Assembly: GCF_018320785.1 (NCBI RefSeq)
Contig: NC_054867.1
Span: forward strand, 32,119,855-32,183,854
Length of the DNA: 64,000 nucleotides
Source: Cheilinus undulatus
Taxonomy: Eukaryota; Chordata; Actinopteri; Labriformes; Labridae
Direction: 5' to 3'
This document shows positions 1 to 52,200 of the stretch, piece after piece. Numbering within the stretch: the stretch's first letter is position 1; each line of letters starts with the position of its first letter. The notes beneath the pieces were generated by a model. It was not told the origin of the DNA. It ran no database searches and saw only the letters and a program-made list of their open reading frames with translations. Made by a program: the position numbers and the translations under genes.

Positions 1-80
1 TGAATATTACGTCTGGCATTATCAACTGCTAAAAGACTCACCTGATATTGTAACATTATTATTATTTTATTGTGTCCTAC

Positions 81-195
81 CTGAATACAGCTGGCCCAGT
101 AGCTGACTGCAGAAAAACTGTGAGAGGAAGTGATGTCATACATAAGGAGAAAGGCCTGGGCTCTGTGGAAAATTTGTCTTGTGATGCTTTGAAAC
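81..195 (-). CDS. rab44: rab44 exon after switch II, last visible
   Basis: A 115-base exon with acceptor gatccttgaag and donor ATTCAG|gtagga. It completes the Arg of switch II and reads [20 protein letters not shown], then [18 protein letters not shown], aligning with the conserved F-x-S-I-T and YDIT segments of Rabs. The following exon, expected to carry NKxD, is left of the window. Confidence 0.85.
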
Positions 196-3100: not shown

Positions 3101-6100
3101 ACTGTCTTTACTTGACCATTTTCCCATTTGAAACATTTGCAGGTATGCATAAGAAGAAAAAAAGCAGGTGACCAAGGAATTATAGACTGGTTTCAGAGAA
3201 TTTCTCTAATTTTTTATGGCTCTGAAATCTGTTTAACTATTTGTAGTAGAACTACATTTGCTTTAGGCTGATAGAATCATGTACTTTCTCACAATTATGA
3301 AATTGATCTTGTAAATTCTTTCTTTCTCTAAATCTTTCCTAGATTCTTCATGTAAAATTGTTACATTTGCCCTTAAATGTTCTTGTGGAAAAGAAACCTG
3401 ATATCAAGGTATAACTTGTGAGAAAGCTGTATTTAGTCATTTTAATTTTCTGGAATAACAATTGTTTTATCTGTTGTCCATATTTGTTGAAAAACAGACA
3501 CAACTGACACAAGCATCTTTGTCTTGAAAGGGGAAACCTACCTTTCTTGCCCTGCTGTGTCCCACAACTGCAGCATCACAACTTTTCCATCCACCACCAC
3601 AGTCCCCAGGCATGTATCAATCCCTAAATAAGTATTCATGTTTTATTACAATGCATCTTGATAGGAAAATAGCAGGATAAAGATTCAAGTTCTTACCACA
3701 AGAAGCAGGTAAGTCTGTAGAAAACTTTCCAACTACAGCTCTTTTCATGAAGGCGGTTTTACCCACACAGCTGTCGCCGACCATCACCACATTGTAAGAA
3801 TTTGATCTGTTGACTGCTTCTTTAGAGTTGACTGTTAAATCAAAAACAAAAACATTTTATGTCACATTTCATGTTTCTTTTAATATTCAACATCCCTCTC
3901 TCATTATCTTTCTATGATCAGCCACATTTTGCTGTGGCTCTGACTAGTCTAAGTAAATGTTTTCCATTTGATATTTACCCAGGGAGAACGTTTTTTGACC
4001 TTCCTGACTCTGGTGGATTCCAGCAGAGGGTTGTTGAACTCGAGTCACTTGTTGGGATTTCTTCTCACTGCAGAAAAGAATGCCATCAGACACAGATCAA
4101 ACAAAACTCAGTGCAGAAACAGTCGTCAGTGTCTGCAACAGTTTGCATTTTGTAAAGAGACTGTGATCCCATAGGTATGTTTACTATTTTTTACCAAAAG
4201 GCAAAGGGGCTCCAAATCAAAGTCATTATAGGTGTGCATAAGACAGCAGATATTATATCTAAAATACATTATTTTTATTATTTTTTATTATAATTGTACA
4301 TTTCTATGGATATGATATGATACAAACATTACTCATAGGTGCAACATAAACATCTTCCAGACAATTTCCTCCCTTTTTTAAACTTTAATTCATCACACGC
4401 ATGTGTTACTAATTGTCCTCTTCTGTTTTACTGATTATCAAATTTACAGCTACTTTCTAACACAGCAGGGCGAGCTCTTGTCTAAACAGGCTTCTCATCT
4501 TGGCTCTGTCCTTCCAAGTCCCATTACTTATATCTATCTACAGACTCTTTGATTGGTTTTTACTTTTCTTTTTGGCCATTTTGACACTGGTTGTTGTGTA
4601 TTTGGATGTAAGTTTGTTTGGCCTTGTTACACAAGAATGTGATTGTACAAGTTCTGAGGAGAGTGTTAGGGCAGAGAGAGCAGCATGTTAAGCCTTTTTG
4701 AAGTGTTGGGAGCCATCTTGATGAAACATCGGTGAAAGGAGGTGCCCAGTCCATAGTCCTGATATGTAGGCCCTCTCAGTCCATCTAGTTTTATGGTTGG
4801 GCAGTGGGGTCTTTAGAGGCCATGTGGTAGGGTAGACAGTATCAACATTTTCAGCAGCTGGAGCCTGGGTCTGTAGAAAGTGCCAATGCTGTTTGGGTTG
4901 TGGTGAAAATTAAGGGCTATGTGGTGGGGTATAGTGTATAAATTATCAGTAGGGGAAAAGCATGGAGAGATGGATAGGCTAGGGGTCCTCAATAAAGCTC
5001 TCCCTTATAATCAGGCACCACTATCATGTTTGCCTTGATAGTTTTATTTTAACTTTAGGAGACTGATAGTTTCTGTTATTGTTGTTAAAAAATGGAGCAA
5101 TAATTTCCATTTAAAAAAATCTTGCAAAATTTCCACTGCAGTATTAATTTGGGGAAAAATGCTGAAACCTGACAAACACTTTTTTTTAAAGAACGTGGTG
5201 TAGGCCAAAACTCCATCACAGTGAGGCAATCATGGGATCACTGTTTACAATAGCTGCATGGGAAATCAGAGTCTTCATCACTGTATTTTTAGTGACTGTG
5301 GCTGTAGTTGGTTTCTCATTGCTTCGTTTGTCAAATACATGCTGCAGAAACAATGACATGAGCAAAGACTCTTCTCTTGTAGCAGTGGTCTCAGTTGGTG
5401 GGATGGAACCTAAAAGTGGTCCAAAAAGGGGGCAGTAATGGGCTAAACAAGCAGTGAACAGCAGTTGGAAGTGGCAAAAATGGGTTTCAAGCAAGCAGCA
5501 ACCTCTGGTCCTGAAAAATGAAGCCAATGCGAGAGTGCAAAAAATTGCAAAATGGGGAGTGTCTAATCGTGATTGGCTGCAGGATTACAGGAAGTCCTTT
5601 ACACAACACATGTTAAAAAGCAGTTTTTACACTAGAAATAGACTATTTTACACCCTGGATAAAAAAACAAAACAAAAACAAACGTCTCTTATTATTACGG
5701 GGGGGGGGGGGGTTAATTATATTTTATATTTAGGAAAAGCCTCACTGCGCACTGATTGGCATGTCTCATTTGATTGACAGATAGCTTGACAGGCACACGC
5801 TAACTATCTGTCAACCAGAAGGCTAGCTTAAATGATAACTTAGCTGACTGGAGGTCGAGCTCAGTGGGTGGGCTCTTATCTGCCATTAGGTTGATCCAAA
5901 GCTTGGTTGAGACAGCGATATCACTATGAAAGCTGCCACGGATTGGCTTTAAAAGCTGTTTGAGTCTGCTTATTGTAATCAAACGGCTGATGTCACACAG
6001 GCTTTGTCCAATTCTTTTTACAGTCTGTGGTGTCAAGTGGCAGTGGCCTAACCAAGTAGTGAAAAGCAGTTAAAAGTAACAAAATGTGTGGAAAAATAAT

Positions 6101-9100
6101 AATAATAATAATAATAATATCTTGAATTTATATAGCGCCTTTCAAGAAACCCAAGGACGCTTTACAGGAACACATAGACATGGACAAACTACATAAGGGG
6201 TAGGATGAGTGTAAGGGGTGGTTTAGTGAAGACTGTAGGCTGTGGTGAACAGGTGGTGCTTGCGACGTTTTTTGAAAATGTCCAGAGATGGAGCGCTATG
6301 GATGTCTGCAGGCAGAATGTTCCAGAGGGTGGGAGCTGCAGCACTGAAGGCTCTGTCTCCATAGGTTCGGAGTTTGGTTTTGGGTATGGAAAGTAGGCCG
6401 GTGTCTGAAGATCGAAGGTTGCGGGATGGTGTGTATGGATGGAGGAGATCAGAAAGGTACTGGGGAGCCAGAGCATGGAGAGATTTGTATGTGAGGAGGA
6501 GGACTTTGTAGTTGATACGGGACTTGATGGGGAGCCAGTGGAGGTGGATGAGGGGTTAAAAGGGGTTTAAAACAGCAAAGATGGCTTAACAGAGGTATAA
6601 TAAGTGGAAAGTGGCAAAATGGGTTAAAAGGGGGTAATAAAGGGCAGAAAAAGTGGTGAAAATAATTTCCAAAATAGAAAAATGGGTCCCAATTACAAAA
6701 ATGGGTCATAAGTGAAAATAAGTGGTGAAAAAGGATTAAGAAGTGTCACAAATGGGTTTAAAGTAGCGAAAATGGGTTCAACGTGGCAAAAATGGGTCAA
6801 CAGAGGCAAAAAATAGACAGCAAGTGCAAAAAAATGGGCAGAAGAAAGTGATGAAAAGGGGTTTAAATGTGTCAAAAATTGGTAAAAAAATAAAGAGGAA
6901 AAAATAGGCAAAAAAATGCCAAAAACTGATAAAAACTGGCAAATAAAGGTGCCAAAGATTGGTGTAAAGATAAGTTTAATGTGGTTAAAGTGGAACAAAG
7001 AAATAATTTCAACATCGGAACCCAGTAAGGGTTTGACACACTTTTCAGCTCCAAAGTGAAGCGGCTGTTAGCCAGAGTGTAGCACCAATGCTACAGATCC
7101 AAACTGATGCTATTAATAAATCACAGCTAGGAAGGGCCCATTCACCTGGCTTGTTAGGGGCCCTGCCAGTACTACGATCAGGCCTGTTGGCAGGTACTGA
7201 GCCTGGAACCAGGTGAGAACCCCTGTACCCCAACAAGACGGATCGTATTTTTAATGTGCAAAGCTATATATGGAACTGTAGCATTATTGGAGGCCATAAT
7301 GTTAATATCTCTGTTTATGGCTGAAGTCACACATCTCGTATGGAAAAAGCTGCTTTTAGCTTCTCTGCTGAGTTCATATAAAACACTTCACAACAAAAAT
7401 TTAAAGTTCACAGAAATATTCCCATAGGTCTTTAAAATAAAGCATTATTTTAAATAACAGTGTTGTTATCACTTTTTTTAGCCTACTGTGCTTGTTTTGT
7501 TGTACTCTTGACATCACAAAAAAAGAGGGCATGCTACCAGTGATTCCTTGAGAATTAAATAAAGGTTGAAGGAAAGAAGATTTACCTCTTTGGTGCTGAG
7601 TTGTCTCCTCCTTTCAAGGTGCTGATGCCTGGTGATGCTTCCTCTTTAGTATTTTCAACCTGCACAGGCAAAACATGTCACTTAGATAATTATACTGGTT
7701 GCAAATTTAGTCCTCCAAATTACAAATTTTTTTCAAAACATAATTTTGTTTTAAATATTGTGGACCTTTTGAGGGATCTAAAATGAGCCTTTTCAATTTG
7801 AACCCTTTGGCATGTAGCAGGTGAGTGTTGAATCTAGTTACTGTAGATATTAATTACTAATGTAAAACAATATTTTTAAAAATGATTTATAGAGAATTAA
7901 AAAGAATATATGCCAGGAATCAGCCTTAAAATCATTTTTTGCTGTAGGTCAGCAGAGCTATGTGTAGCTTAGGCTACACACAGAATACAAAATCCGCAGT
8001 GTTGAGATCAAGAACTCAGATATGCATCTATGTTCCCCTTTTCACTATGTGAAACTTGTAGTGTGGGCAGAATGTTCCTCATTTCAGTTCCTTGCATCAA
8101 TTTGTTCGTTTTTGCGAAACATTTTACCAGTGAGTAAGACATTTTACACCAACAGGAAGTACATGACATACATGCAAACAGCTGTCTACTTCTTAAAGTA
8201 CAATGTAAAACTATTAAAGTTGAAGATTTGTACATGATAATCTTTGAGTGTAAAAGCAAATCTATGCTGCTTACCTCAGATGTCTTCTTCTCATTTGTCT
8301 TGACAGCACTTTCATCGGTGACACCTTCACCATCGCTCCCACTTTCAGTCTCTATTATTTTCTCTTCTCTTACAGTTTGGTTTTTATTGCTCTGTTGTCC
8401 ACGTGTCTTACGGTTAGATCCAAATTTTCTTCTTCTACCAGAAGATGTTGCTTCTGGCATTGCATCCAGTTCAGGGGTGGTGGATTGTTTTGCAGGGAGA
8501 TAATCTGGAGTTAGTTGATGCTCTATTTTGCTATTAGGCTCAAGATTGTCTTCAGATGTCCCAAGAGCTGTTGGTGTGAGGTGAGAATCACTAATGTGGC
8601 TGAACTCGGCTTGTTCCAATACTATGGCTTTCTTTTGTTCAGAGTCATCATCCCCATGTTCTACTTTGGGTTCCGAATCCTCTTCTTTGTTGCCTGAAAA
8701 GTAATCTGTCTTTACATCCTCAGCATTTGTCGTGGCCTCTGTTGCCTCGTTATCTATCTCCTGCTTTTGATGCAAGCCATCCTCTTTGGTTTTTGACTTC
8801 AGATTCTTACGAGTGGATCCCATTTTTCTTCTGCGATGAGTCAAATTTGGGCTAGCGTTCTTCATCTCAAGATTTGTATTGTGAACTTCTTCATCCACCT
8901 TGTTTGACTCCTGTATGCTAGACTCTGTGTTGTTTTGCTCTTCTCCACCTTTGTTCACTTCAGTTGTCACTATTTCCAAATCTGTCCCAGCCACAACCAG
9001 CTCTGTGGCTGATTTCAGAGCTTGGTGTTGTAATACTATGGCACTCTCTGGCCTTTCTGCAGTACTTTGTGAACACAAAGTGGTCTCATCTAAAGGCACA

Positions 9101-12100
9101 GAGTTCTCTCCTGTCATATTAGAGTTTGCTGAGTTCTCAGTTGCCAGATTTTTGTCTGAGATAATATCATTCTCCAAACTTTGTGGGTCACAGGTACTGC
9201 CTTGTAGAATTTGCCCCAAGTCAAGATGACTGATGGTTTCCTGAGTTTCCAGTTGTTTTTCGACCTCAGCACTGACAAGCCTGGGAATGTCTTCCATTAC
9301 TTTCATTTTTTCAAGACTTCTTAAATCAGCTTCAGCATCAAATTCCCTCTTTTTGGTTTCATCTTTGCTTTCCTGCACTCTTTCCAGATTCCCCTTGAAT
9401 AGAATCCTCCGATTAGAGCCAAACTTTCTTTTCTTCTGTTTGGATTTTTCTTGTAAATTTTCACTTCCATTTTCCTCAGCCACATCCACAGCCTGCTCTG
9501 CTTTGAGGTTTACCACAGGATTGGTGTCCAGTGGAGCCAAAGACTCAGTCTTGTGTGTAGTAGAAAACAATCCAGACTGGGGTGATGCAGTGATCTCCCG
9601 TAAAGCCATAATATTCTCTGTGTCTTGGTCTCTCTTTACCAAATCTTTAAAATTTTCAACTTCTTCGTTCCCCGAAACCGGAACATCCACCTCGGTGTCT
9701 GCTTCTGTTTTATAGTCGTCGAACATAACATGTCCCACTGTTTCTACTGTATCATTGGTCTGTTGTGTAATTATTATTTTGTCTTTGTCATAAGGTGATG
9801 GTTCCTTGTTTTGGATGTGATAGTCATCTTCTTGCTCAAAAGGATCAGAAGAGAATGGCCTGATGAAATCGATATCATCATGACAAGGAATATTCTCAGT
9901 GTCTAAATAATCTTTCAGGGCTGGTGATTGTACCAATTCTGTAAGCTGACTTAAATTATCAAGGTCATTATATCCTTCCTTTTGTCCCACATTATCATCT
10001 TTTACATTTTGTGACAAAACCAGGCCTGTGTTGCCGTTGTCATTTCTTACTTTAATGGGGGGGTTGAGTTTGAAGTCTTCTTCTGGTTCGCCTTCCTTCT
10101 TTTTATCTATTGCTGATGAAATTTCTGTTGCTTTTATGTTGAGTGCTTCATCATTGCTCCTCTTTTGAACACATTCTTCTTTTGACTCATGTAAAGTTTC
10201 AGTAACAATGTTCTCGACATGCTGTTGTCTTTTACTTCTACGACTTGATCCCAGTTTTCTCCTGTTCCTAATAGGGTTCCCATTGGGGTTCATGTGCTGG
10301 GATTCAGAGTCTGAAGGAACATTAATTTCAGCTTGCAGGGCTTGCACTGAAGAATCACCCTCCTTAACTGTGGACCAGATATTTTCATCTTCTTCTGGCA
10401 TTTGTGTTGGCTTTACCTCATCTTCGTGGGTTTCAGTAACATTTTCCCCAGGATGATGATCATCATTTGCTTGCTCAAAGGCCTCAGAGATGGTAGATTT
10501 TGCTGGATGATCTTCGAGCCTGTCATAAAGAGGGAAGTCTTCCTGCTTACTTGGACGATCAAAGGAACTCTTTATAGTCAACTCAGGTTGGTTAATGTCA
10601 CTCACTTCAGCTTCCTCTATCAGGTTTGACAAAACCATTTCTTTGCTTATGTTAGGACTCTGTTTCACACTTTGGCCAGCACTGTCAAGTTCATGCTTTT
10701 CTTGCGTTTGGGCTGGTAGTGTCACATCCTGGTCATGAAAAGCATCCTCTGAATGATAAGCACCTCTGGTGTCTTCATCCTGAAAAGTGCCAGATGTGTC
10801 CATTCCTTCAAGAGGCACTAACATTGATTCATTACACTCCTCCACTCTTAATTCTCCCTCATTTACTCCATGATCTTGGAGATTTTCACTTTCAGGAATT
10901 GGGCTTTCCAGGTTCTTCTCGGGATAGTTTGCTGGTGTGGGGTTTTGAAGCCCAGAATGTGTAATGGCAAGATTTGAAGTGCCATCATGTGGTACAGGGA
11001 TGCTGACATCATAGTCAGTCTGTTGACTGAGTTCTTCTTGACCTACTGTCTCTGTTCCTAGTTGCATTTGTGATGTTTCCAGTTCCTCCCTGCCCCTGGT
11101 ACTTTCTCTGTAGTCAATAGCTGAGTCTTCCAAGTTAGAGATCATTTCTGATTGTTGTGTTTTTACAGATTTACTGTCCTCATCTTCAAACAGGACCTTC
11201 TCCTGATTGCTGAACACATTACCATCTGGATTTGGATTGTCTTGCATAGTTACCAAATCAGTGCTTTCCACATTCAACTCAGGCTGGCACAGGTCACTTA
11301 CTTGGTCTTTTGGGTGTCCAGATAGTAAATCAGAACTTGACATTTCTGTTGCTTTTACATCGAAGGCTTCATCATTGCTCCTCTTTTGAACACATTCTTC
11401 TTTTGGCTCATGTAAAGTTTCAGTAACAATGTTCTCGACATGCTGTTGTCTTTTACTTCTACGACTTGATCCCAGTTTTCTCCTGTTCCTAATGGGGTTC
11501 CCATTGGGGTTCATGTGCTGGGATTCAGAGTCTGAAGGAACATTAATTTCAGCTTGCAGGGCTTGCACTGAAGAATCACCCTCCTTAACTGTGGACCAGA
11601 TATTTTCATCTTCTTCTGGCATTTGTGTTGGCTTTACCTCATCTTCGTGGGTTTCAGTAACATTTTCCCCAGGATGATGATCATCATTTGCTTGCTCAAA
11701 GGCCTCAGAGATGGTAGATTTTGCTGGATGATCTTCGAGCCTGTCATAAAGAGGGAAGTCTTCCTGCTTACTTGGACGATCAAAGGAACTCTTTATAGTC
11801 AACTCAGGTTGGTTAATGTCACTCACTTCAGCTTCCTCTATCAGGTTTGACAAAACCATTTCTTTGCTTATGTTAGGACTCTGTTTCACACTTTGGCCAG
11901 CACTGTCAAGTTCATGCTTTTCTTGCGTTTGGGCTGGTAGTGTCACATCCTGGTCATGAAAAGCATCCTCTGAATGATAAGCACCTCTGGTGTCTTCATC
12001 CTGAAAAGTGCCAGATGTGTCCATTCCTTCAAGAGGCACTAACATTGATTCATTACACTCCTCCACTCTTAATTCTCCCTCATTTACTCCATGATCTTGG

Positions 12101-15100
12101 AGATTTTCACTTTCAGGAATTGGGCTTTCCAGGTTCTTCTCGGGATAGTTTGCTGGTGTGGGGTTTTGAAGCCCAGAATGTGTAATGGCAAGATTTGAAG
12201 TGCCATCATGTGGTACAGGGATGCTGACATCATAGTCAGTCTGTTGACTGAGTTCTTCTTGACCTACTGTCTCTGTTTCTAGTTGCATCTGTGATGTTTC
12301 CAGTTCCTCCCTGACCCTGGTACTTTCTCTGTATTCCATAGCTGAGTCTTCCAAGTTAGAGATCATTTCTGATTGTTGTGTTTTTACAGATTTACTGTCC
12401 TCATCTTCAAACAGGACCTTCTCCTGATTGCTGAACACATTACCATCTGGATTTGGATTGTCTTGCATAGTTACCAAATCAGTGCTTTCCACATTCAACT
12501 CAGGCTGGCACAGGTCACTTACTTGGTCTTTTGGGTGTCCAGATAGTAAATCAGAACTTGACATTTCTGTTGCTTTTACATCGAAGGCTTCATCATTGCT
12601 CCTCTTTGAACACATTCTTCTTTTGGCTCATGTAAAGTTTCAGTAACAATGTTCTCGACATGCTGTTGTCTTTTACTTCTACGACTTGATCCCAGTTTTC
12701 TCCTGTTCCTAATGGGGTTCCCATTGGGGTTCATGTGCTGGGATTCAGAGTCTGAAGGAACATTAATTTCAGCTTGCAGGGCTTGCACTGAAGAATCACC
12801 CTCCTTAACTGTGGACCAGATATTTTCATCTTCTTCTGGCATTTGTGTTGGCTTTACCTCATCTTCGTGGGTTTCAGTAACATTTTCCCCAGGATGATGA
12901 TCATCATTTGCTTGCTCCAAGGCCTCAGAGATGGTAGATTTTGTTGTATGTTCTTCGTGCCTGTCACAAAGAGGGAAGTCTTCCTGCTTACTTGGATGAT
13001 CAAAGGAACTCTTTATAGTCAACTCAGGTTGGTTAATGTCACTCACTTCAGCTTCCTCTATCAGGTTTGACAAAACCATTTCTTTGCTTATGTTAGGACT
13101 CTGTTTCACACTTTGGCCAGCACTGTCAAGTTCATGCTTTTCTTGCGTTTGGGCTGGTAGTGTCACATCCTGGTCATGAAAAGCATCCTCTGAATGATAA
13201 GCACCTCTGGTGTCTTCATCCTGAAAAGTGCCAGATGTGTCCATTCCTTCAAGAGGCACTAACATTGATTCATTACACTCCTCCACTCTTAATTCTCCCT
13301 CATTTACTCCATGATCTTGGAGATTTTCACTTTCAGGAATTGGGCTTTCCAGGTTCTTCTCGGGATAGTTTGTTGGTGTGGGGTTTTGAAGCCCAGAATG
13401 TGTAATGGCAAGATTTGAAGTGCCATCATGTGGTACAGGGATGCTGACATCATAGTCAGTCTGTTGACTGAGTTCTTCTTGACCTACTGTCTCTGTTCCT
13501 AGTTGCATTTGTGATGTTTCCAGTTCCTCCCTGACCCTGGTACTTTCTCTGTATTCAATAGCTGAGTCTTCCAAGTTAGAGATCATTTCTGATTGTTGTG
13601 TTTTTACAGATTTACTGTCCTCATCTTCAAACAGGACCTTCTCCTGATTGCTGAACACATTACCATCTGGATTTGGATTGTCTTGCATAGTTACCAAATC
13701 AGTGCTTTCCACATTCAACTCAGGCTGGCACAGGTCACTTACTTGGTCTTTTGGGTGACAAGATAGTAAATCAGAACTTGACATTTCTGTTGCTTTTACA
13801 TCGAAGGCTTCATCATTGCTCCTCTTTTGAACACATTCTTCTTTTGGCTCATGTAAAGTTTCAGTAACAATGTTCTCGACATGCTGTTGTCTTTTACTTC
13901 TACGACTTGATCCCAGTTTTCTCCTGTTCCTAATGGGGTTCCCATTGGGGTTCATGTGCTGGGATTCAGAGTCTGAAGGAACATTAATTTCAGCTTGCAG
14001 GGCTTGCACTGAAGAATCACCCTCCTTAACTGTGGACCAGATATTTTCATCTTCTTCTGGCATTTGTGTTGGCTTTACCTCATCTTCGTGGGTTTCAGTA
14101 ACATTTTCCCCAGGATGATGATCATCATTTGCTTGCTCAAAGGCCTCAGAGATGGTAGATTTTGCTGGATGATCTTCGAGCCTGTCATAAAGAGGGAAGT
14201 CTTCCTGCTTACTTGGACGATCAAAGGAACTCTTTATAGTCAACTCAGGTTGGTTAATGTCACTCACTTCAGCTTCCTCTATCAGGTTTGACAAAACCAT
14301 TTCTTTGCTTATGTTAGGACTCTGTTTCACACTTTGGCCAGCACTGTCAAGTTCATGCTTTTCTTGCGTTTGGGCTGGTAGTGTCACATCCTGGTCATGA
14401 AAAGCATCCTCTGAATGATAAGCACCTCTGGTGTCTTCATCCTGAAAAGTGCCAGATGTGTCCATTCCTTCAAGAGGCACTAACATTGATTCATTACACT
14501 CCTCCACTCTTAATTCTCCCTCATTTACTCCATGATCTTGGAGATTTTCACTTTCAGGAATTGGGCTTTCCAGGTTCTTCTCGGATAGTTTGCTGGTGTG
14601 GGGTTTTGAAGCCCAGAATGTGTAATGGCAAGATTTGAAGTGCCATCATGTGGTACAGGGATGCTGACATCATAGTCAGTCTGTTGACTGAGTTCTTCTT
14701 GACCTACTGTCTCTGTTTCCTAGTTGCATTTGTGATGTTTCCAGTTCCTCCCTGCCCTGGTACTTTCTCTGTATTCCAATAGCTGAGTCTTCCAAGTTAG
14801 AGATCATTTCTGATTGTTGTGTTTTTACAGATTTACTGTCCTCATCTTCAAACAGGACCTTCTCCTGATTGCTGAACACATTACCATCTGGATTTGGATT
14901 GTCTTGCATAGTTACCAAATCAGTGCTTTCCACATTCAACTCAGGCTGGCACAGGTCACTTACTTGGTCTTTTGGGTGTCCAGATAGTAAATCAGAACTT
15001 GACATTTCTGTTGCTTTTACATCGAAGGCTTCATCATTGCTCCTCTTTGAACACATTCTTCTTTTGGCTCATGTAAAGTTTCAGTAACAATGTTCTCGAC

Positions 15101-18100
15101 ATGCTGTTGTCTTTTACTTCTACGACTTGATCCCAGTTTTCTCCTGTTCCTAATGGGGTTCCCATTGGGGTTCATGTGCTGGGATTCAGAGTCTGAAGGA
15201 ACATTAATTTCAGCTTGCAGGGCTTGCACTGAAGAATCACCCTCCTTAACTGTGGACCAGATATTTTCATCTTCTTCTGGCATTTGTGTTGGCTTTACCT
15301 CATCTTCGTGGGTTTCAGTAACATTTTCCCCAGGATGATGATCATCATTTGCTTGCTCAAAGGCCTCAGAGATGGTAGATTTTGCTGGATGATCTTCGAG
15401 CCTGTCATAAAGAGGGAAGTCTTCCTGCTTACTTGGACGATCAAAGGAACTCTTTATAGTCAACTCAGGTTGGTTAATGTCACTCACTTCAGCTTCCTCT
15501 ATCAGGTTTGACAAAACCATTTCTTTGCTTATGTTAGGACTCTGTTTCACACTTTGGCCAGCACTGTCAAGTTCATGCTTTTCTTGCGTTTGGGCTGGTA
15601 GTGTCACATCCTGGTCATGAAAAGCATCCTCTGAATGATAAGCACCTCTGGTGTCTTCATCCTGAAAAGTGCCAGATGTGTCCATTCCTTCAAGAGGCAC
15701 TAACATTGATTCATTACACTCCTCCACTCTTAATTCTCCCTCATTTACTCCATGATCTTGGAGATTTTCACTTTCAGGAATTGGGCTTTCCAGGTTCTTC
15801 TCGGGATAGTTTGCTGGTGTGGGGTTTTGAAGCCCAGAATGTGTAATGGCAAGATTTGAAGTGCCATCATGTGGTACAGGGATGCTGACATCATAGTCAG
15901 TCTGTTGACTGAGTTCTTCTTGACCTACTGTCTCTGTTTCTAGTTGCATCTGTGATGTTTCCAGTTCCTCCCTGACCCTGGTACTTTCTCTGTATTCCAT
16001 AGCTGAGTCTTCCAAGTTAGAGATCATTTCTGATTGTTGTGTTTTTACAGATTTACTGTCCTCATCTTCAAACAGGACCTTCTCCTGATTGCTGAACACA
16101 TTACCATCTGGATTTGGATTGTCTTGCATAGTTACCAAATCAGTGCTTTCCACATTCAACTCAGGCTGGCACAGGTCACTTACTTGGTCTTTTGGGTGTC
16201 CAGATAGTAAATCAGAACTTGACATTTCTGTTGCTTTTACATCGAAGGCTTCATCATTGCTCCTCTTTTGAACACATTCTTCTTTTGGCTCATGTAAAGT
16301 TTCAGTAACAATGTTCTCGACATGCTGTTGTCTTTTACTTCTACGACTTGATCCCAGTTTTCTCCTGTTCCTAATGGGGTTCCCATTGGGGTTCATGTGC
16401 TGGGATTCAGAGTCTGAAGGAACATTAATTTCAGCTTGCAGGGCTTGCACTGAAGAATCACCCTCCTTAACTGTGGACCAGATATTTTCATCTTCTTCTG
16501 GTATTTGTGTTGGCTTTACCTCATCTTCGTGGGTTTCAGTAACATTTTCCCCAGGATGATGATCATCATTTGCTTGCTCCAAGGCCTCAGAGATGGTAGA
16601 TTTTGTTGTATGTTCTTCGTGCCTGTCACAAAGAGGGAAGTCTTCCTGCTTACTTGGACGATCAAAGGAACTCTTTATAGTCAACTCAGGTTGGTTAATG
16701 TCACTCACTTCAGCTTCCTCTATCAGGTTTGACAAAACCATTTCTTTGCTTATGTTAGGACTCTGTTTCACACTTTGGCCAGCACTGTCAAGTTCATGCT
16801 TTTCTTGCATTTGAGGTGGTGGTTTTACATCCTGGTCATGAAAAGCATCCTCTGAAAAATGAGGACCTATGGCATCTTTAACCTGAAAAGTGCCAGATGT
16901 GTCCATTCCTTCAAGAGGCACTAACATTGATTCATTACACTCCTCCACTCTTAATTCTCCCTCATTTACTCCATGATCTTGGAGATTTTCACTTTCAGGA
17001 ATTGGGCTTTCCAGGTTCTTCTCGGGATAGTTTGCTGGTGTGGGGTTTTGAAGCCCAGAATGTGTAATGGCAAGATTTGAAGTGCCATCATGTGGTACAG
17101 GGATGCTGACATCATAGTCAGTCTGTTGACTGAGTTCTTCTTGACCTACTGTCTCTGTTTCTAGTTGCATCTGTGATGTTTCCAGTTCCTCCCTGACCCT
17201 GGTACTTTCTCTGTATTCCATAGCTGAGTCTTCCAAGTTAGAGATCATTTCTGATTGTTGTGTTTTTACAGATTTACTGTCCTCATCTTCAAACAGGACC
17301 TTCTCCTGATTGCTGAACACATTACCATCTGGATTTGGATTGTCTTGCATAGTTACCAAATCAGTGCTTTCCACATTCAACTCAGGCTGGCACAGGTCAC
17401 TTATTTGGTCGTTTGGGTGTCCAGATACGGATGCAGAACTTTCTGTGGCATCATCAGTCACCCTTTCAGAGGGGTAGTGAATTTCTTGCACTTGTGCTTG
17501 CTTAACCTCCTCCCCCTTCCTGTGAACTTCATTTGCAGTGTCCTTTGAATGAAGAACTCCAGCAGCTTCACATGAGCTGAAGACTTCATTTTGTTTCTCA
17601 TTTTTAGGCAACTCTTCTTTCTGTGATGAAAATTCTTCATGCTCAATACTCCATTCAAATTCTGTACCACTTTGGGGTCTGTGGTTTTCTGTGGTTACCA
17701 CCATCTTGAGAAGCGAATCTTGTTCCTCTGAATTTAAGCGTTGCTCATTCACCAAAGAGTTGGCTGGTAAATTTACATGTGGCTTTGAGAAATTGTTTTC
17801 CTTGTCTCTGTGCTCTTTTTCAGTTACAGTGATTTTGTGGAGTTCTTCATCTGGTATCTTCGTTGACAATTCAACAAGCTTTTGATCAACTTCTGAAACA
17901 AAATTCAAACTTGTAAGCCCACTGGCGTCAACCACTTTGCCAAAACTGGCATCATGTTTTAGTTGATTACCTACTTCTTCCATCTGAACAGTATCAAACG
18001 TGTCACTGTCTACCATGTTTGTTTCAATTGATATGTCCTCTGCTGTTGTCTCTCCTGTTAATGAGCTTTTTGTAGTTTCAGAGGGCTCATTATCTTTGGT

Positions 18101-20290
18101 CATTTCGTTGTCCTCCTCGTTAGGTCCTTGGTACATTTCTGCAGCAGTGAGGATGAGACTACTGTTGGTTTGCAGATGTTGAGAGTTTAGAGAAATCTCA
18201 GATGGAAGGGTTTGAAAAGATTTGCTCTCCACTTGATTTAAGAGGCCTTCCTTTTCTAGATAGCCTGTTTGGTCTGAGGTGTGATTTATATCATCTTCTA
18301 CTTTGCCTTGAGTCGTGAATACCTGGTCAAGTGCTGTGTCTTCTCTTTTATCGTCACTTATCCGTGGTCTTTCATACTCCTCTTTTCTGTGATCAAAAGA
18401 CTCAATGTTGATTACTTTTGTAGGATGCTCATCATGTGTGTCAACAGGGTTTGAAACTTCCTGCTTGGCGACAGAGTCGTCTGAGCTTCTCATGGTGAAT
18501 TCAGATTGGTCACTGACTTTATCTTGTTTAACTGGGTTTCCAGAAAATATTTCTAAGTGTTCCACAACATTTGGTGTCAAAATTTCAGAGTGAACAATTT
18601 CTAAAATTTCTTGACTTTGTGTTAAATGAAACTCTGGTTCAAGAACTGTGTTTACAGCCTCCTCTGACTGATGAGCACCTCTGATTTCTGACAAGGTTGA
18701 TATCTCACTTTGCTCTTCAAGTGTAGATGACTGTTGTTTTGAAGACGGAACTGTTTCTTTCTCAACAATGCTTTCATTTTCAGGTTGGTTTTGAGGGCTT
18801 CTTTCATCCAAGATGTCAAGAAGACACTGATTTTCCACAGGACAGCAAAGTTTTTCAAATTGAGAAGTGTCGAAAGTCATTTCTGCCAGTGCTCTTTCCT
18901 CTGACTTCCTCTGAGCTGTCTCAATTGGTAACGACACTTCTGTTTCCAAGCCTTCCTTACCTGCTATATTTTCCACCACTTCATGTGTTGGTTCGTGGTA
19001 TGATTCAGTGGCAGAATCCTTGATCTGCTTAATCTTATGCTTTCGACTCGACCCAAGTTTTCGTCGGTTCCCAACAGGGCTACAGTCTGAGTCCTGCTCA
19101 TCTCTAGTCACAAAAGTATCTTGACGATGGGAGTCAAAATAGGTTTCTGTTTCTGACTGAAGCATTTGTAAAGAAGAACTGTTCAAGTCAGCACCAGAGG
19201 GATTTTTTTCCATCTCTTGAAATGTCTGGTCAACCTGGGGTTTCATATCATCATCAAGTCCACTTTCTTTTTCGTCCACCTGATCCAGCCCATTGTTAGC
19301 TTTAACTGAAGCTAACTGAACTAAATCACAAACATGGTAATCCTCAGTCTTGTCTACAAAACCCTCAAAGGTGTCTTCTTTTTTGTGTTGTTCATCCTGT
19401 TTGTCGGCAGAATTTAAAACTTCTTGTTTGGCAGAAGCGCCAGTGCTTTCAAACTTGTACTGGTATGTGTAACTGGGCTCAGCTTGGTTATTCAGATTTT
19501 CAGAAATTCTTTCAGTAGGAAGCCTTTCATGCATCAGATTTTCATCATCAGTTCCATGCAGTTGTGTTATCTTCATCTCCTTTTCTGATTGCCAAGCATC
19601 TTTGACTTCAGCAGATAAGCTGAAAATCTCTTTCTGTTGCTCTTTTGTTGATAGCTCCTTATTTGGTGCTGAAAGTTCTGCCTGTTGAATATTGCATTCA
19701 CTTTGCTCAGTCAGGTCTGGTGTGGGAGAAAACGGTTGAGCTAGTGATTCTACATTTGACTCACTCATGTAGCTGCTCTGAGGATTTCCATCCAGTCTTA
19801 TAATTTCTGTGCTCTCTTCTCTGCCCTTGCTTTCTTTCACCTTCGGGAGTTCTTCAGAAAAATACAAAAGGCCTTCGTGTGTCACAATTTCATGCTCATA
19901 ATTTTTACTTAAAAAGTTCCCCTCCTCATGTTGTGTTACTGGTGACATTTGTGTTGTTTCTGGGCTTCCTTCACCCTCAGTCTTTTCCTCAACTTCCTCT
20001 CTAGGTTTGTGGTGTGATTCTGTTTCTGACTCCTTGACATGCCTTCCCCCTTTATGTCTTCGACTAGACCCAAGTTTTCTTCTATTCCCTGTGAGTTCTG
20101 GTGAAGCTGCGGTCTGAGATTGTGAATCGTCAGGCTTGGCAAATGCTAATTCTTTATCTTCAAGTACACTGTGTTCTGCAACAGGGACGCTGTCTGCAAC
20201 TAAGAACTCATCTGTTTCATTTGTGTTTTTGTGATTTACACCATGCCGACGTGAGCCAATCCTTTTTTTCTTTCCACTTTGTTTGGACAT
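81..20290 (-). CDS. rab44: rab44-like giant Rab GTPase gene, 3' end outside window
   Basis: Minus-strand gene whose coding exons in the window are 20290-8275, 7659-7586, 4067-3979, 3831-3697, 3623-3542 and 195-81. All junctions are GT/AG and the phases agree. The last three exons encode a Rab fold: P-loop GDSCVGKT, switch [10 protein letters not shown], then MYDIT and SYWASCIQ. The NKxD and SAK motifs and the C-terminus must lie left of base 1. The N-terminal part is a huge acidic region with repeated basic RRKLGSSRR-like boxes. From memory, mammalian RAB44 has a similar box near its N-terminus, is a long Rab and sits next to SRSF3, as here. Mammalian RAB44 is linked to lysosome and granule traffic in blood-lineage cells. 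No EF-hand is seen. After correcting a net 2-base loss, the window encodes about 4,171 residues, roughly four times my recollection of the human length. The family call is firm; orthology rests on the boxes and synteny. Confidence 0.8.
196..3541 (-). other. rab44 intron containing a decayed Tc1 element
   Basis: No further Rab exon is needed: the phases of the flanking exons match directly. The interval holds a Tc1 remnant (1476-2845) and a 440-base minus-strand open frame at 1057-1497 with no recognised similarity. The rest is AT-rich and featureless. Confidence 0.6.
1476..2845 (+). mobile_element. Decayed Tc1/mariner element
   Basis: Terminal inverted repeats of about 80 imperfect bases: the left end starts TAGTGCCTATAAAAATGATT and the right end finishes with the inverse around GTGAATACTTTTTTAGGCAC, next to TA dinucleotides as expected for this superfamily. 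Between them, 2222-2434 still encodes transposase-like KVLWSDDN and [10 protein letters not shown]. The frame is broken upstream, and the catalytic C-terminal part is missing after a deletion near 2600. Non-functional. Confidence 0.85.
3542..3623 (-). CDS. rab44: rab44 exon with the Rab switch II motif
   Basis: An 82-base exon with acceptor tatttag and donor GAAAG|gtaggt. It reads [14 protein letters not shown] and ends with the invariant WDTAGQER. The switch II Gln needed for GTP hydrolysis is present. The CLGT stretch differs from the usual F-K-x-K-T after GxD. Confidence 0.9.
3697..3831 (-). CDS. rab44: rab44 exon with the Rab P-loop
   Basis: A 135-base exon with acceptor gatttaacag and donor TTGTG|gtaaga. 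It encodes a beta strand, YNVVMVG, followed by the nucleotide-binding P-loop GDSCVGKT, then the helix and the start of switch I, ending LPASC. The Lys and Thr that bind GTP phosphate and magnesium are present. The switch I Thr position appears to be Ser (see findings). Confidence 0.9.
3979..4067 (-). CDS. rab44: rab44 linker exon before the GTPase domain
   Basis: An 89-base exon with acceptor tttctgcag and donor CTGG|gtaaat. It reads [16 protein letters not shown] and continues to KTFSLG. Phases match both neighbours. Low-complexity, Gln-rich spacer; no domain recognised. Confidence 0.65.
6100..6560 (-). mobile_element. LINE 3' fragment (L2-like) with ORF C-terminus and ATT tail
   Basis: On the minus strand about 75 codons read as the C-terminal end of a fish LINE reverse-transcriptase ORF, including [19 protein letters not shown] and AAPTLWN. 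They are followed by a short 3' UTR ending GGCGCTATATAAATTCAAG and an (ATT)n tail at 6100-6118. 5'-truncated, as is usual for LINE copies. The clade is assigned from the tail type only. Confidence 0.75.
6555..7000. repeat. Degenerate AATGGG/GTGGCAAAA minisatellite
   Basis: Loose repetition of units such as AAAAATGGGTCAA and AGTGGCAAAAATGGG, about 20 bases long and highly variable. The reverse complement of the same motif is at 28555-28830, and a weaker stretch lies at 5410-5560. Confidence 0.7.
7586..7659 (-). CDS. rab44: rab44 linker exon
   Basis: A 74-base exon with acceptor tgtgcag|GTT and donor AAAGAG|gtaaat. It reads [11 protein letters not shown] and continues to SAPKR, entered in phase 0 and left after two codon bases. 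It joins the acidic region to the next linker. No domain is recognised. Confidence 0.7.
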
Positions 20291-20308
20291 GACGCCTGCT
20301 CTTCTTTC
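8275..20308 (-). CDS. rab44: rab44 giant exon: acidic repeat region, frame broken by six 1-bp indels
   Basis: One uninterrupted exon of about 12 kb, from acceptor ctttag|GAAAG to donor TCTGAG|gtaagc. The start codon at 20288-20290 opens [17 protein letters not shown], already one of the basic boxes. The protein is rich in Glu, Asp, Ser, Gln and Thr, with no membrane segment or known fold. Basic boxes recur near 20260, 20075, 19050, 16335, 15115, 13895, 12675, 11455, 10235, 9420, 8825 and 8425. Six nearly identical 407-residue repeats fill 10106-17430. Frame breaks occur at about 15044, 14776, 14757, 14720, 14584 and 12604. The coding part is 12,016 bases as given, while a phase-0 exit needs a multiple of 3; adding the net 2 missing bases gives 12,018 (4,006 codons). 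I therefore read the exon as functional and the breaks as probable sequence errors. Confidence 0.8.
10106..17430 (-). repeat. Six 1,221-bp coding tandem repeats inside rab44
   Basis: Equivalent points recur at 10208, 11429, 12649, 13870, 15090 and 16311, i.e. every 1,221 or 1,220 bases. Copies in gene order: 17430-16210, 16209-14989, 14988-13769, 13768-12548, 12547-11328, 11327-10106. Each encodes 407 residues, starting around SGHPKDQ and ending with the [15 protein letters not shown] box and a tail [11 protein letters not shown]. Copies differ at few positions: DRLEDHPAK against DRHEEHTTK, and MQLETETV against MQLGTETV. A near-perfect multiple of 3 keeps the frame, as expected for selected protein repeats. 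Confidence 0.97.
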
Positions 20309-20584: not shown

Positions 20585-20700
20585 CTCCTAGATATGTCCC
20601 TCTGTCTTCTCATGAGCTTCTCTGAAATGACATCAGCCTACACTTGATGGAAGCTACATTTCACACATAGGGGTTGTTCCTTAACTGCAGCTACAACCGA
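20585..20700 (-). other. rab44: rab44 non-coding first exon (5'UTR), 5' limit approximate
   Basis: A strong donor, ggag|gtaagg, ends this exon at 20585 on the minus strand, and the next exon has an acceptor, gctttag, with its first base at 20308, 18 bases before the start codon. No long frame is seen in it. The upstream border is not visible; ETS-like AGGAAG cores at about 20705 and 20762 suggest transcription starts around 20.70-20.78 kb. Confidence 0.5.
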
Positions 20701-20904: not shown

Positions 20905-20910
20905 TTTATT
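20905..20910 (-). terminator. srsf3: srsf3 polyadenylation signal
   Basis: Minus-strand AATAAA about 590 bases beyond the srsf3 stop codon. The implied 3' UTR is about 20.89-21.50 kb and includes a 22-A run at 21430. It is the nearest canonical signal; use was not tested. Confidence 0.55.
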
Positions 20911-30564: not shown

Positions 30565-31425
30565 TAACCTTGCAAAGCAGATGGATATGCCCATTCCCTC
30601 ATTTTTCACTGGCGAATCCATCTTGTTAAGCTCCTGTCTGAACCGTTGAGAGGGACCCAACTGCTGTCAAGATGGCCGACATGGGCATTGCTATACATCC
30701 AATCCATGCCGGAAGTCCCAAGCGGAAGTTTCTTCTTTTTGTTGAACTCAGCTGCCAGTGCCTAAGCCTAAACCTTGGTGCTGGATCTCAAATATATCTC
30801 CTTCCCCAGTGCCTTACCCTGAACCTAACCACTTGGGTTTTAATGCCTAAGCCTAACCTTTGATGTACAGACTTCCAGTTGAGACTTTCGGTATGGATTG
30901 GATGTATGTCAGCCATCTTGTCTGCATCAATGTACTCTTGGAACCGTTTGGGCTCGGTTAGAAGGTGACAGGACCAATCAGCGACGAGGGGCAGTACTTT
31001 CAGGCTCGGCAGAGTTGTGATGTAAACAAGCAGCAGCAAGTGGCTGGTGCAGTTATGGTGGAAGAGCATAGCGTGGATGCTGCTAAAGCATAAGTTTTAT
31101 CAGAACTTGACAACATTTCTTTGTTAAAAGAAGAGCAAAGAACAGCAGTGAGTTGTTTTCTTTTCAAAAACAACAAAAGTCGAGTACTGACATGTCTATA
31201 GTCCCCATGTTTCACGTTATTCCTTGGTAGCTGCACACGTGCAGCTCGATAGCTGCTACGTCACGTGTTTTGTTGCTCTGATTGGCCCGTAGAAATGTGA
31301 CAGACAGAAAGTTCATCCAGTCACACTCCGAGTTTTTTTCAAAGCCTCTGCCTTTTCTCAAACGTTTTCTATTGAAGCTTTCCCAGATGGATGTGTGAAA
31401 CACACCCATCTGGCGTGTAAGGTTA
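30565..31425 (+). mobile_element. DNA-transposon copy with TAACCTT ends, carrying a nested insert
   Basis: Left end TAACCTTGCAAAGCAGATGG and right end CCATCTGGCGTGTAAGGTTA are inverted relatives. A second copy lies at 51760-52235 and fragments at 57070-57180 and 57664-57775. The interior carries a short reading frame that begins MVEEHSVDAAKA and then stops in this copy. A 293-base insert interrupts the left part. The superfamily cannot be fixed from the sequence. Confidence 0.65.
30640..30948. mobile_element. Nested foldback element with 8-bp target duplication
   Basis: GAACCGTT at 30640-30647 is repeated at 30941-30948. Between them, inverted arms are recognisable: AAGATGGCCGACATGG near the left and GTCAGCCATCTTG near the right, each with ATCCAATCC/GGATTGGAT. 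The related copy at 51.83 kb has the site unoccupied (TCTGAACCGTCTGGG), showing insertion. An 8-bp duplication suggests a hAT-like MITE. Confidence 0.65.
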
Positions 31426-47321: not shown

Positions 47322-48045
47322 TCACTGATCACTTTATTAGGTATACCTGTTTGACTCCTCATTAATGCCTGTCACATGGTTGAAGCAACTGATGCATTTA
47401 GGCATGCAGAGATTAAGACAATAAAAGTTCAAACTGAGCATGAGAATGTAAAACAAAGGTGATTTAAGTGACTTTCAACCATGATGGCTGTTGGTACTTT
47501 ATTCAAATATAGCAGCAGAAATTGAGACTCGTCAGGCCAGGCACTGTTTTCCAATCTTCTATGGTCAAGTTCTGGTAATCCCAGGTGAATTATAGCCTCA
47601 GTTTTCTGATTCAAGGTTGGACTTGTTGTGCGTTCAGAGATGCTGTTTAGTATACTTTGGTTGTGACAAGTGGTTATTTGAGTTGTTGCCTTCATATCAG
47701 CTTGATCCAGTCTGGCCTCTGCCATAAACATGGCATTTTGGGCCCAGAGAACTGCTGCACACTGGATATTTTGTCTTTTTCAGACCATTCTCCATAAACT
47801 CTAGAGATGGTTGTGTATGAAAATCTCATTAGGTCAGCAATTTCTGACATACAGAAGACTGGCCCGTCTGACACCAACAACCACGGCACATCCAAAATCA
47901 CTGAAATCCCCCATCTTCCCCATTCCGGTGCTTGGCTTGTGATGTCTACATGCCTAAATGCTTTGGTTGCTTGCATATAATTGGTTGATTAGGTATTTGC
48001 ATTAATGAGCAGTTGAACAGGTTCACCTAATAAAGTGTGCTGTGA
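47322..48045 (-). mobile_element. Deleted Tc1-like element
   Basis: Ends are inverted copies around CACTTTATTAGGTATACCTG and CAGGTTCACCTAATAAAGTG. On the minus strand, pieces of a Tc1 transposase remain: a DNA-binding part with MSEIADLMRFSYTTISRVYG, and further on LDHRRLENSAWPDESQFLL, the start of the catalytic part. Frameshifted and internally deleted, so inactive. Confidence 0.85.
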
Positions 48046-49291: not shown

Positions 49292-52200
49292 GTACTTGTT
49301 GTTGTTACCTTTTTTATATCACTCTAGTCATTCAGGTTTGACTCATTGTTCAATCATACGGCATGGCTGTTATTTTCTGTCCCCTTTTCTCCCAGCTTCT
49401 ATCTACTTTTTATTTCCTGACTTAAAGGTTTCTCAGTCTCACTGGAAGCTTGTGTTTGTGTGCAGATTGTAAAGCGTCCAGGGCTGGATGGAGCTCAGCC
49501 GATGATCGGGGACAGAGTGACTGTTCACTACACTGGGAAACTTCTAAATGGGAAGAAGTTTGATTGCAGTCGAGATCGTAAAGAACCCTTTTGCTTCAAT
49601 GTGGGCAAAGGTGGGTGTACATTTCTGCACAATCCATTGGTATTAGCTAAAATAACTTAGATAAATAGGCTAATTCACAATGGAAAGAAACACTTAACAG
49701 TTTTTGATTACCTTTTAAAGACAAAAGTCAGAACTTGTGAAATAGTCTGACCCTGGTGTGACGGCATTGCCTCTGAGAGCAACGGCCAATTTATAAGGGC
49801 TTCCAGTGTAGCAAGGAATATTCTGTAGATAATGTCTTAAACATTTAAAAGAAGTATACCAAAAGAGCAGAAAAAAAGCTGCACTGTAAACCCCAGTAAG
49901 TTAATAGAAGTCAATATATAACAGGAAACTGGTTACCAAATTTTTTTAAGTAATATTGAAAAAATAGTATTTGTTAAGTAGCAGGTACTTAACTATTTAA
50001 AGTTATATTAACTCAATTTTACCTGTACATTTATGTTACATTAACTCAACTTTTTTTACGGGAATCTTTCCTGCACTTGGAAATTCGGTTTATCACATGT
50101 TATAGCATTTTTCTTAAAGCTGTATGTTCCTTGTCCGCTGCATTTTTCTCAAATTTATTTCACAAACTTCATTTGAACATTCACACCAACTACAGTAGTC
50201 TATTGTCAATAACCACCATTAAAAATGATTAATAGGTGCACACTCAACCAGGGTGTGCTTTGCCATGATGTTCATCAGCATGGGTGTAGCACAAGGGGGA
50301 AAAAGGGTACTGATTACCTGGGCCCACACTATAGGGAAGGACCCTTGAGAAGACTGCAATCAAAAGTGTCTTTTTATTAATTATTGAATCAAAAGTGACT
50401 AAATGAATCAGTCAACAGGCTGAAATTTGTGTCAAATAGAATAATATAAAATACCGGGGAGGCCCCTGCTCCTCCCTTAAAAATGTCCAAATGGTTTAGT
50501 CCAGCGCTGTGAAATTATGCATGTAAATTTAATTGAACCATAGTTAAAATACTGCTCATAAATTTGGAAATTATGGTTCAAAATACATTGAAATGCACTG
50601 ATATTTTAAAAATGATGCAACATTTCTTGCTTGGCTAGTCGGTTAAGGGGGGCCCAAAGTCCCTAGCTACACCCCTGTTTATCAGTGCTGCTGAATTTGC
50701 ACCTATTTGTCTAACTGACTGGGAAACTTCACTCATGGTGCAACAGTGCCTAATACTCAAAGGCATTCTGGGAAACTGCAGATTAAGAATTGGTTGTCAG
50801 ACAATTTGAGTACACTGACAAAAAAATAGAGACTGACAGCTGTTTACTGAAATAACATTTTTTCAACTCAGAAAAATAGAGCTGAAATAGCTGTTTTGGA
50901 TTTGGAAGCTAAAACAACAATTTAATTTTGATATTGTCCTTTAACTGTTCGGTCTTCCAGAGTACCAGAAATTATCTCTACCAGACAGCAGTACTGGAAT
51001 TATAATGATACAAGTTTTAAAAAGACAGTCTATCAGTCAGTCTTCATTTGTTTAGCTGCAGTTAATAATCAGTTATCTCAAGACACTTTACACTTTAAAA
51101 AGGGATGATTTATTTTTAACTTGAAGTTTTCAAGCTTGCAAAAGCAAGTCAAGTGAAATATGAGCAAGTTAAAGGGATACACCCTACAATAGATTTGATA
51201 AAAACATAAACATAATATAATATTAGCTCTTGTTAAAAAATCAGTGGTGTTAGCTTAAAATTAAAAATGAGCTATTTCAGCTCTGTTTTTCTGAGGTGAG
51301 AGAACAAATTTTTAGTTTAACAGCACTACATCACTCAATATTTTTTTTATTGTACTCAAATTATTTCAAATCAATCACTTAATCTGCATAGTTTCCCCAG
51401 AATGCCTTAGGGCATTAGACACACCATGAGTGAAGTCATCCTCTCAGTTAGACATGACTGATGGGGCCAACTTAAACATAGCATAAATGATGTACTGAAG
51501 TCTGTAGAAGAATTTCTGTGTCAAAGTGCACCTTTCAACATTGGTTACTTCTAGTCAATCACAGTAGGTTACTGCAAGTGGCACGATTGTTCTGAATTTA
51601 AATATGTTCAGACATAACTGCAGGACAAAGAAATGTGTAAATTACATATTGTCATATGAGTCATCAAAAATGCATTTCCACCACTTAAAAACTTTAATGA
51701 AAACAGTTACAACAATTACTTACAGTATTTTCAACTTGTTTGGTTTTACAGTGTCTACCTAACCTTGCAAAGCAGATAAATATGCCCGTTTCCTTGTTTC
51801 TCACTGGCGAATCCATCTCGAAAAGCTCCCATCTGAACCGTCTGGGCCCAGTTAGAAAGTAACAGGACCAATCAGTGACGAGGGGCAGTACTTTCAGGCT
51901 TGGCAGAGTCGTGACGTAAGCAAGCAGTGAGAGGAGGCCGGTGCAATGATGGTGGAAGACATTAGCGTGGATGCTGCTAAAGCGCCAGTTTTATCAGAAC
52001 TTGATGACATTTCTTTGTTAAATGAAGAACAAAGAACAGCAGTGAGTTGTTTTCTTTTCAAAAACGGCAAAAGTCGAGTACTTACATGTCTATAGTCGCC
52101 ATGTTTCACGTTATTCCTCAGTAGCTGCGCATGCACAGCTTGATAGCAGCTACATCACGTGTTTTGTTGCTCTGATTGGCCCATAGAGATGTGACAGACA

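Follow-up and report, generated by a model that had tools for sequence, protein, structure and literature searches.

Whether one gene of Cheilinus undulatus joins a giant acidic repeat exon to the exons of a Rab GTPase, and which member of the Rab family such a gene would represent, is the question raised by the minus strand of the 64,000-nucleotide stretch of DNA analyzed here (the whole of this stretch is hereafter called the window). A preliminary description of this DNA had proposed a Rab of this build, with an N-terminal arm of about 4,000 residues that contains six near-identical repeats.

Identity of the Rab Gene

The motifs of the Rab class, the P-loop GDSCVGKT and WDTAGQER, were both present, and the joined Rab piece of 110 residues matched the Pfam family Ras (6.7e-29). 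In a comparison with solved sequences at an E value of 0.001, in which the best 60 of 833 matches were considered, the best match to this piece was RASEF (92.2 bits), followed by Rab43 (81.4 bits). Switch I (window 3697-3623) reads ASCGID, compared with ATLGVD in RASEF, with Ser in place of the usual Thr.

With an SRSF3 query, srsf3 exons were located at 24194-23820 and 21708-21637, directly upstream on the same strand, and with an FKBP5 query, fkbp5 exons were found between 49187 and 63950 on the plus strand. In humans, both genes lie near RAB44 on 6p21, where CDKN1A is another neighbor; a CDKN1A query had no match in the 64-kb window. A query with the N-terminus of human RAB44 likewise had no match in the window at an E value of 0.5 (tblastn). 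Based on the synteny with srsf3 and fkbp5 and on the Rab piece, the gene is very likely the fish orthologue of rab44. The large Rab that had been placed at the RAB44 position is borne out by the Rab piece, by the neighboring genes and by the phases that lead to the giant acidic repeat exon.

In the window as a whole, the search for RNA genes returned none at the gathering score and no tRNA. Three open stretches (2180-2431 on the plus strand, 47695-47988 and 6226-6555 on the minus strand), which by eye resemble remnants of Tc1-type transposase and a LINE, had no Pfam match at an E value of 0.1 (0 of 3). Two dispersed repeats were also noted, one of 300 bases in two copies with 87% identity (30941-31240 and 51835-52134) and one of 99 bases in three copies with 73-80% identity (30566-30664, 51761-51859 and 57669-57767); they perhaps belong to one mobile element family.

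Exon Chain From the Giant Exon to the Rab Domain

The following exons were delineated, with splice-site matrices that are general and approximate. Donor ranks refer to the 456 GT sites between 8500 and 40, and acceptor ranks, given for the five exons after the giant exon, refer to 512 sites.

20585..20685, minus strand: possible non-coding 5' exon; donor at 20585 with a score of 7.2, far end guessed
8275..20308, minus strand: giant N-terminal exon of 12,034 bases; first Met at 20290, donor GAG/GTAAGC in phase 0
7586..7659, minus strand: linker exon 1, 74 bases; acceptor rank 16 of 512, donor rank 8 of 456
3979..4067, minus strand: linker exon 2, 89 bases; acceptor rank 29 of 512, donor rank 35 of 456
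3697..3831, minus strand: Rab exon with the P-loop GDSCVGKT, 135 bases; acceptor rank 12 of 512, donor rank 6 of 456
3542..3623, minus strand: Rab exon with WDTAGQE, 82 bases; acceptor rank 287 of 512 (weak), donor rank 3 of 456
42..195, minus strand: next Rab exon (with YWASCIQ), 3' end at 81 or 42; acceptor rank 3 of 512

The borders of the giant exon, at 20308 and 8275 on the minus strand, were recovered as previously described. The donor at 8275 ranked 2 of 456. The acceptor at 20308 has a poor score (-2.66), and with better-scoring AG sites close by, the position of the 5' border is uncertain. The exon spans 12,016 nt between the Met at 20290 and its donor, which would correspond to a product of about 4,000 residues ahead of the linkers. 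The length of the exon fits the arm that had been claimed, but in the given sequence the frame breaks twice. The preliminary description had also pointed to a 5' part of the gene at "20.7 kb," presumably a possible non-coding exon for which a strong donor-like site was located at 20585. The interval from srsf3 to the giant exon leaves little room for coding exons, and the AATAAA found there at 20910 presumably belongs to srsf3.

The last Rab exon in the window has two donors in the same phase, one at 81 (rank 4 of 456) and a stronger one at 42 (rank 1 of 456). When this exon is taken to 81, the five exons after the giant exon form 165 codons without a stop and their phases agree, which upholds the two short linkers that had been proposed between the giant exon and the Rab exons. 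The weak points of the chain are the poor acceptors at 20308 and 3623 and the donor of linker exon 2, which has rank 35. The exons that should carry the NKxD motif, the SAK region and the C-terminal cysteines are expected outside the window, past its base 1. With good confidence, we regard this exon chain, together with the rab44 identity, as probably correct.

Repeat Array and Frame Breaks

The arm is read in three open segments and contains a tandem array:

10146..17425, minus strand: array of about six near-identical units of 1,221 bases (407 codons), from the repeat search
15018..20290, minus strand: open segment 1, 1757 codons, from the ORF reading
12577..14645, minus strand: open segment 2, 689 codons in another frame, from the ORF reading
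8275..12627, minus strand: open segment 3, 1451 codons in a third frame, which is the frame of the donor to linker exon 1, from the ORF reading
14126..15345, minus strand: array unit 2, five single-base indels, net -1, from the alignment of copies
11685..12904, minus strand: array unit 4, one single-base deletion, from the alignment of copies

The array comprises 5.96 units, and the repeat search returned six copies with spacings of 1221, 1220, 1221, 1220 and 1221 bases. The substitution difference between copies ranged from 0.08% to 3.29% and was below 1% in 13 of the 20 pairs compared, in agreement with the six near-identical 407-residue repeats described before. Such a plain array and such long open frames rule out chance repeats or a chance open frame. 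The five most different pairs all involve the first, partial unit, mostly due to one patch of clustered changes. In this unit (17787-16567), the clustered differences fall at alignment columns 941-1013, and most of the remainder matches the other copies; judging from this patch pattern, it is as if the later copies had been homogenized by gene conversion. As far as the copies themselves reveal, the array is a recent multiplication of one block carrying a basic motif (see below).

The claim of a consistent phase throughout holds from the 3' frame of the giant exon through the linkers to the Rab exons, but not within the giant exon, where three segments lie in three frames. Units 2 and 4 are both 1,220 bases long, and the single deletion of unit 4 is common to unit 2; units 1, 3 and 5, which served as the reference for these two, have no indels among themselves. 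The indels are confined to the two interior copies, and the old flanks remain open. Two of the five indel columns fall in homopolymers (one A run and one C run), two more are at most one column from a site that varies among the copies, and the fifth is two columns off (its placing is ambiguous). The gathering of indels at copy-variant sites (two of five within one column, compared with a background of 7.6%; tail 0.05) is only suggestive. Because the indels occur in only two copies, in homopolymers or near copy-variant sites, we infer that both frame breaks are errors of the consensus or assembly, in an array in which reads cannot be placed uniquely. For the same reason, the copy number is uncertain. 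Taken literally, the given sequence encodes a protein that ends after 1,757 residues, ahead of the Rab exons. Automated gene annotation would be expected to fail at an array of this kind.

Composition and Motifs of the Arm

The net charge of the arm, summed over the three open segments, is -457, and its pI is 4.48-4.52 (about 4.5), which confirms the acidic and highly charged character that had been ascribed to it. FoldIndex, computed for stretches of 51 residues, was below zero in 1649 of 1706, 638 of 638 and 1352 of 1400 such stretches in segments 1, 2 and 3, respectively; the arm is accordingly predicted to be acidic and disordered. No Pfam family reached the cut-off in the three segments. 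A folded unit of known type was considered and rejected, as the 407-residue unit had no solved relative at an E value of 1 and no Pfam family in its segments. A viral or prokaryotic relative did not come to light: viral contigs gave none, and of the 10 stretches in genome contigs that fit a pattern, none was confirmed.

Twelve motifs of the form [RK][RK][LFMI]GS(x)R[RK], with x optional, were found in the arm: three upstream of the array, six inside it and three downstream. When the arm was shuffled 2,000 times, the motif never arose, and the same held for 2,000 shuffles restricted to the two flanks, where six of the twelve lie. The unit matched the upstream flank mainly around the motif (59% over 29 residues, 2e-6), and its matches to the downstream flank were weak (E values of 0.025-0.19). 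One spacer stretch of the unit also matched the upstream flank (31% over 112 aligned positions, 3e-4). Motifs three and four (window 19063 to 16363) are 900 residues apart, more than two unit lengths. The spacer match falls within this gap, at arm residues 535-639, which suggests that the gap may represent an old unit minus its motif. The motif matches and the spacer match therefore point to the motif as an old part that has been kept, with remnants of an older unit in the upstream flank. In the preliminary description the array had been recognized, but the twelve basic motifs that tie it to older, diverged flanks had been overlooked. A motif KLGSNRR is present near the N-terminus of human RAB44; this string was absent from the literature searched.

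Among the frame-intact copies (n = 5), counted without units 2 and 4, there were 6 synonymous and 29 nonsynonymous distinct changes (expected synonymous share 0.236, p 0.43); in this count, a codon of unit 3 that carries two changes was entered as two separate changes, of which one counted as a stop. By this measure, the residue changes among the copies give no sign of constraint on residues.

Internal Splice Donors and Alternative Readings

The giant exon contains donor-like sites of its own, the strongest of which would define a shorter first exon:

18961..20308, minus strand: possible shorter first exon; donor CAG/GTAAGG in phase 1, first of the 543 GT sites in the exon

Phase 1 of this donor is the phase of the P-loop exon. 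Within the array, CAA/GTAAGT occurs at five places and GAA/GTGAGT at six; every one of these sites is in phase 0, which matches linker exon 1. Internal donors are therefore available in fitting phases, and isoforms with a short arm are possible. The splice model of the preliminary description stands as regards the chain to the Rab exons, but it had overlooked these sites. One could go further and assume that the usual Rab44 is short, spliced from 18961 to the P-loop exon or from the unit donors to linker exon 1, and that the giant form is rare. The rank of the 18961 site and the sites in the array are consistent with this, as are the long and short forms in which mouse Rab44 is made according to one report (PMC8303950). 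However, the site scores come from approximate matrices, and all 12 kb are open apart from the two breaks, including the old flank downstream of the array as far as the 8275 donor. This openness suggests translation of the entire exon in one form or another, and we consider a predominantly short Rab44 unlikely.

The two remaining alternatives would disconnect the arm from the Rab domain. If the frame breaks were real, the locus would hold a truncated allele or a decaying gene whose acidic product, 1,757 residues long, lacks a Rab domain. The breaks are indeed present in the given sequence, and one deletion is common to units 2 and 4; however, a decayed gene would fit poorly with later open segments of 689 and 1451 codons, with Rab exons that are otherwise intact in the window and with indels limited to two interior copies, which makes this reading very unlikely. 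Alternatively, there may be two genes, one for a giant acidic protein that terminates at 8008 and one for a Rab with its own 5' end. The open frame does continue past the donor to a stop near 8008, and seven polyA-like hexamers lie between 7255 and 3884, as any A+T-rich stretch would give. Against two genes, the 8275 donor is the second best of 456 and the chain leads to the Rab exons in phase, so that such a separation appears highly improbable.

Comparison With Known Large Rabs

The EF-hand and the coiled coil are the hallmarks of mammalian large Rabs (PMC8303950; PMC9586991). No Pfam family for an EF-hand was found in the three arm segments, and the EF-hand and coiled-coil letters of CRACR2A had no match in the window at an E value of 0.5 (tblastn). 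The ORFs between 8275 and 3850 were surveyed by eye, two of them also with Pfam. These are not strong tests, and the absence is less than clear-cut: one isolated EF-loop-like pattern occurs at 9630, and the pattern used misses the RAB44 control too. In a crude heptad count, the best values were 6, 4 and 7 of 8 in segments 1, 2 and 3 and 7 of 8 in both controls; a stretch at the level of the controls was thus present only in segment 3 (near 9048).

Mammalian RAB44 resembles the fish gene in having its Rab domain C-terminal to a long N-terminal part and in having SRSF3 as a neighbor. Mouse Rab44-L is 924 residues long and contains EF-hand, coiled-coil and proline-rich parts (PMC8303950), whereas the fish gene has a putative acidic repeat arm some 4,000 residues long and gave no match to such families; the size gap to mammalian RAB44 that had been pointed out is therefore correct in scale. 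RASEF/Rab45 and CRACR2A/Rab46 share the large-Rab layout, and the fish Rab piece is nearest to RASEF among the solved structures listed; both possess an EF-hand and a coiled coil, for which the CRACR2A query gave no match in the fish window. In general character, the arm is also similar to neurofilament-like and other polyelectrolyte sidearms in combining an acidic spacer of low hydropathy with repeated basic, possibly phosphorylated motifs, but it differs from them in sitting on a GTPase. No description of a fish Rab44 protein of such build was found in the literature searched on Rab44 and fish, a search that covered few of the subscription journals; annotation databases may already contain such proteins.

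Possible Function and Biological Meaning

In mouse melanocytes, as reported, Rab44 is located on melanosomes via lipidation of the Rab domain, dynactin is bound by the coiled-coil middle region, and calcium acts via the N-terminus (PMC9586991). In zebrafish, rab44 appears among the genes of immature neutrophils in one study (PMC11505477) and in the gene list of one kidney neutrophil cluster in another (PMC10948150).

We tentatively propose a mechanism in which the lipid-anchored Rab domain would keep the arm attached to a granule or lysosome-related organelle. The arm would act as a polyelectrolyte spacer with little constraint on its exact residues, and its twelve basic motifs could serve as repeated docking or kinase (phosphorylation) sites. 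Unequal crossing over between units would alter valency and reach. This spacer-and-docking scheme is plausible but falls short of an even chance; that the arm is a putative tether or scaffold, as had been suggested, is a reasonable inference. As a whole, the reading of the locus as a fish rab44 whose acidic, disordered arm, about 4,000 residues long, comes from one exon, with breaks that are assembly errors and with the spacer mechanism, is slightly favored. A bolder formulation, which we regard as rather doubtful, is that this vertebrate Rab gave up the N-terminus that senses calcium and binds dynein and gained an evolvable polyelectrolyte brush about 4,000 residues long. Its some 12 basic motif beads would vary in number through unequal crossing over, and its reach may be set via the splice donors repeated in the units.

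If the EF-hands are truly gone, the calcium sensor of the mammalian protein would not be available to the fish protein. Provided that the giant form is made, this Rab would exceed the large Rabs of mammals several times in length. The N-terminus of Rab44, a calcium sensor and dynein adaptor in mammals, would then be shown to be replaceable by a disordered repeat arm. The number of repeats could differ among individuals and species, and such differences could be related to the traffic of granules or pigment organelles.
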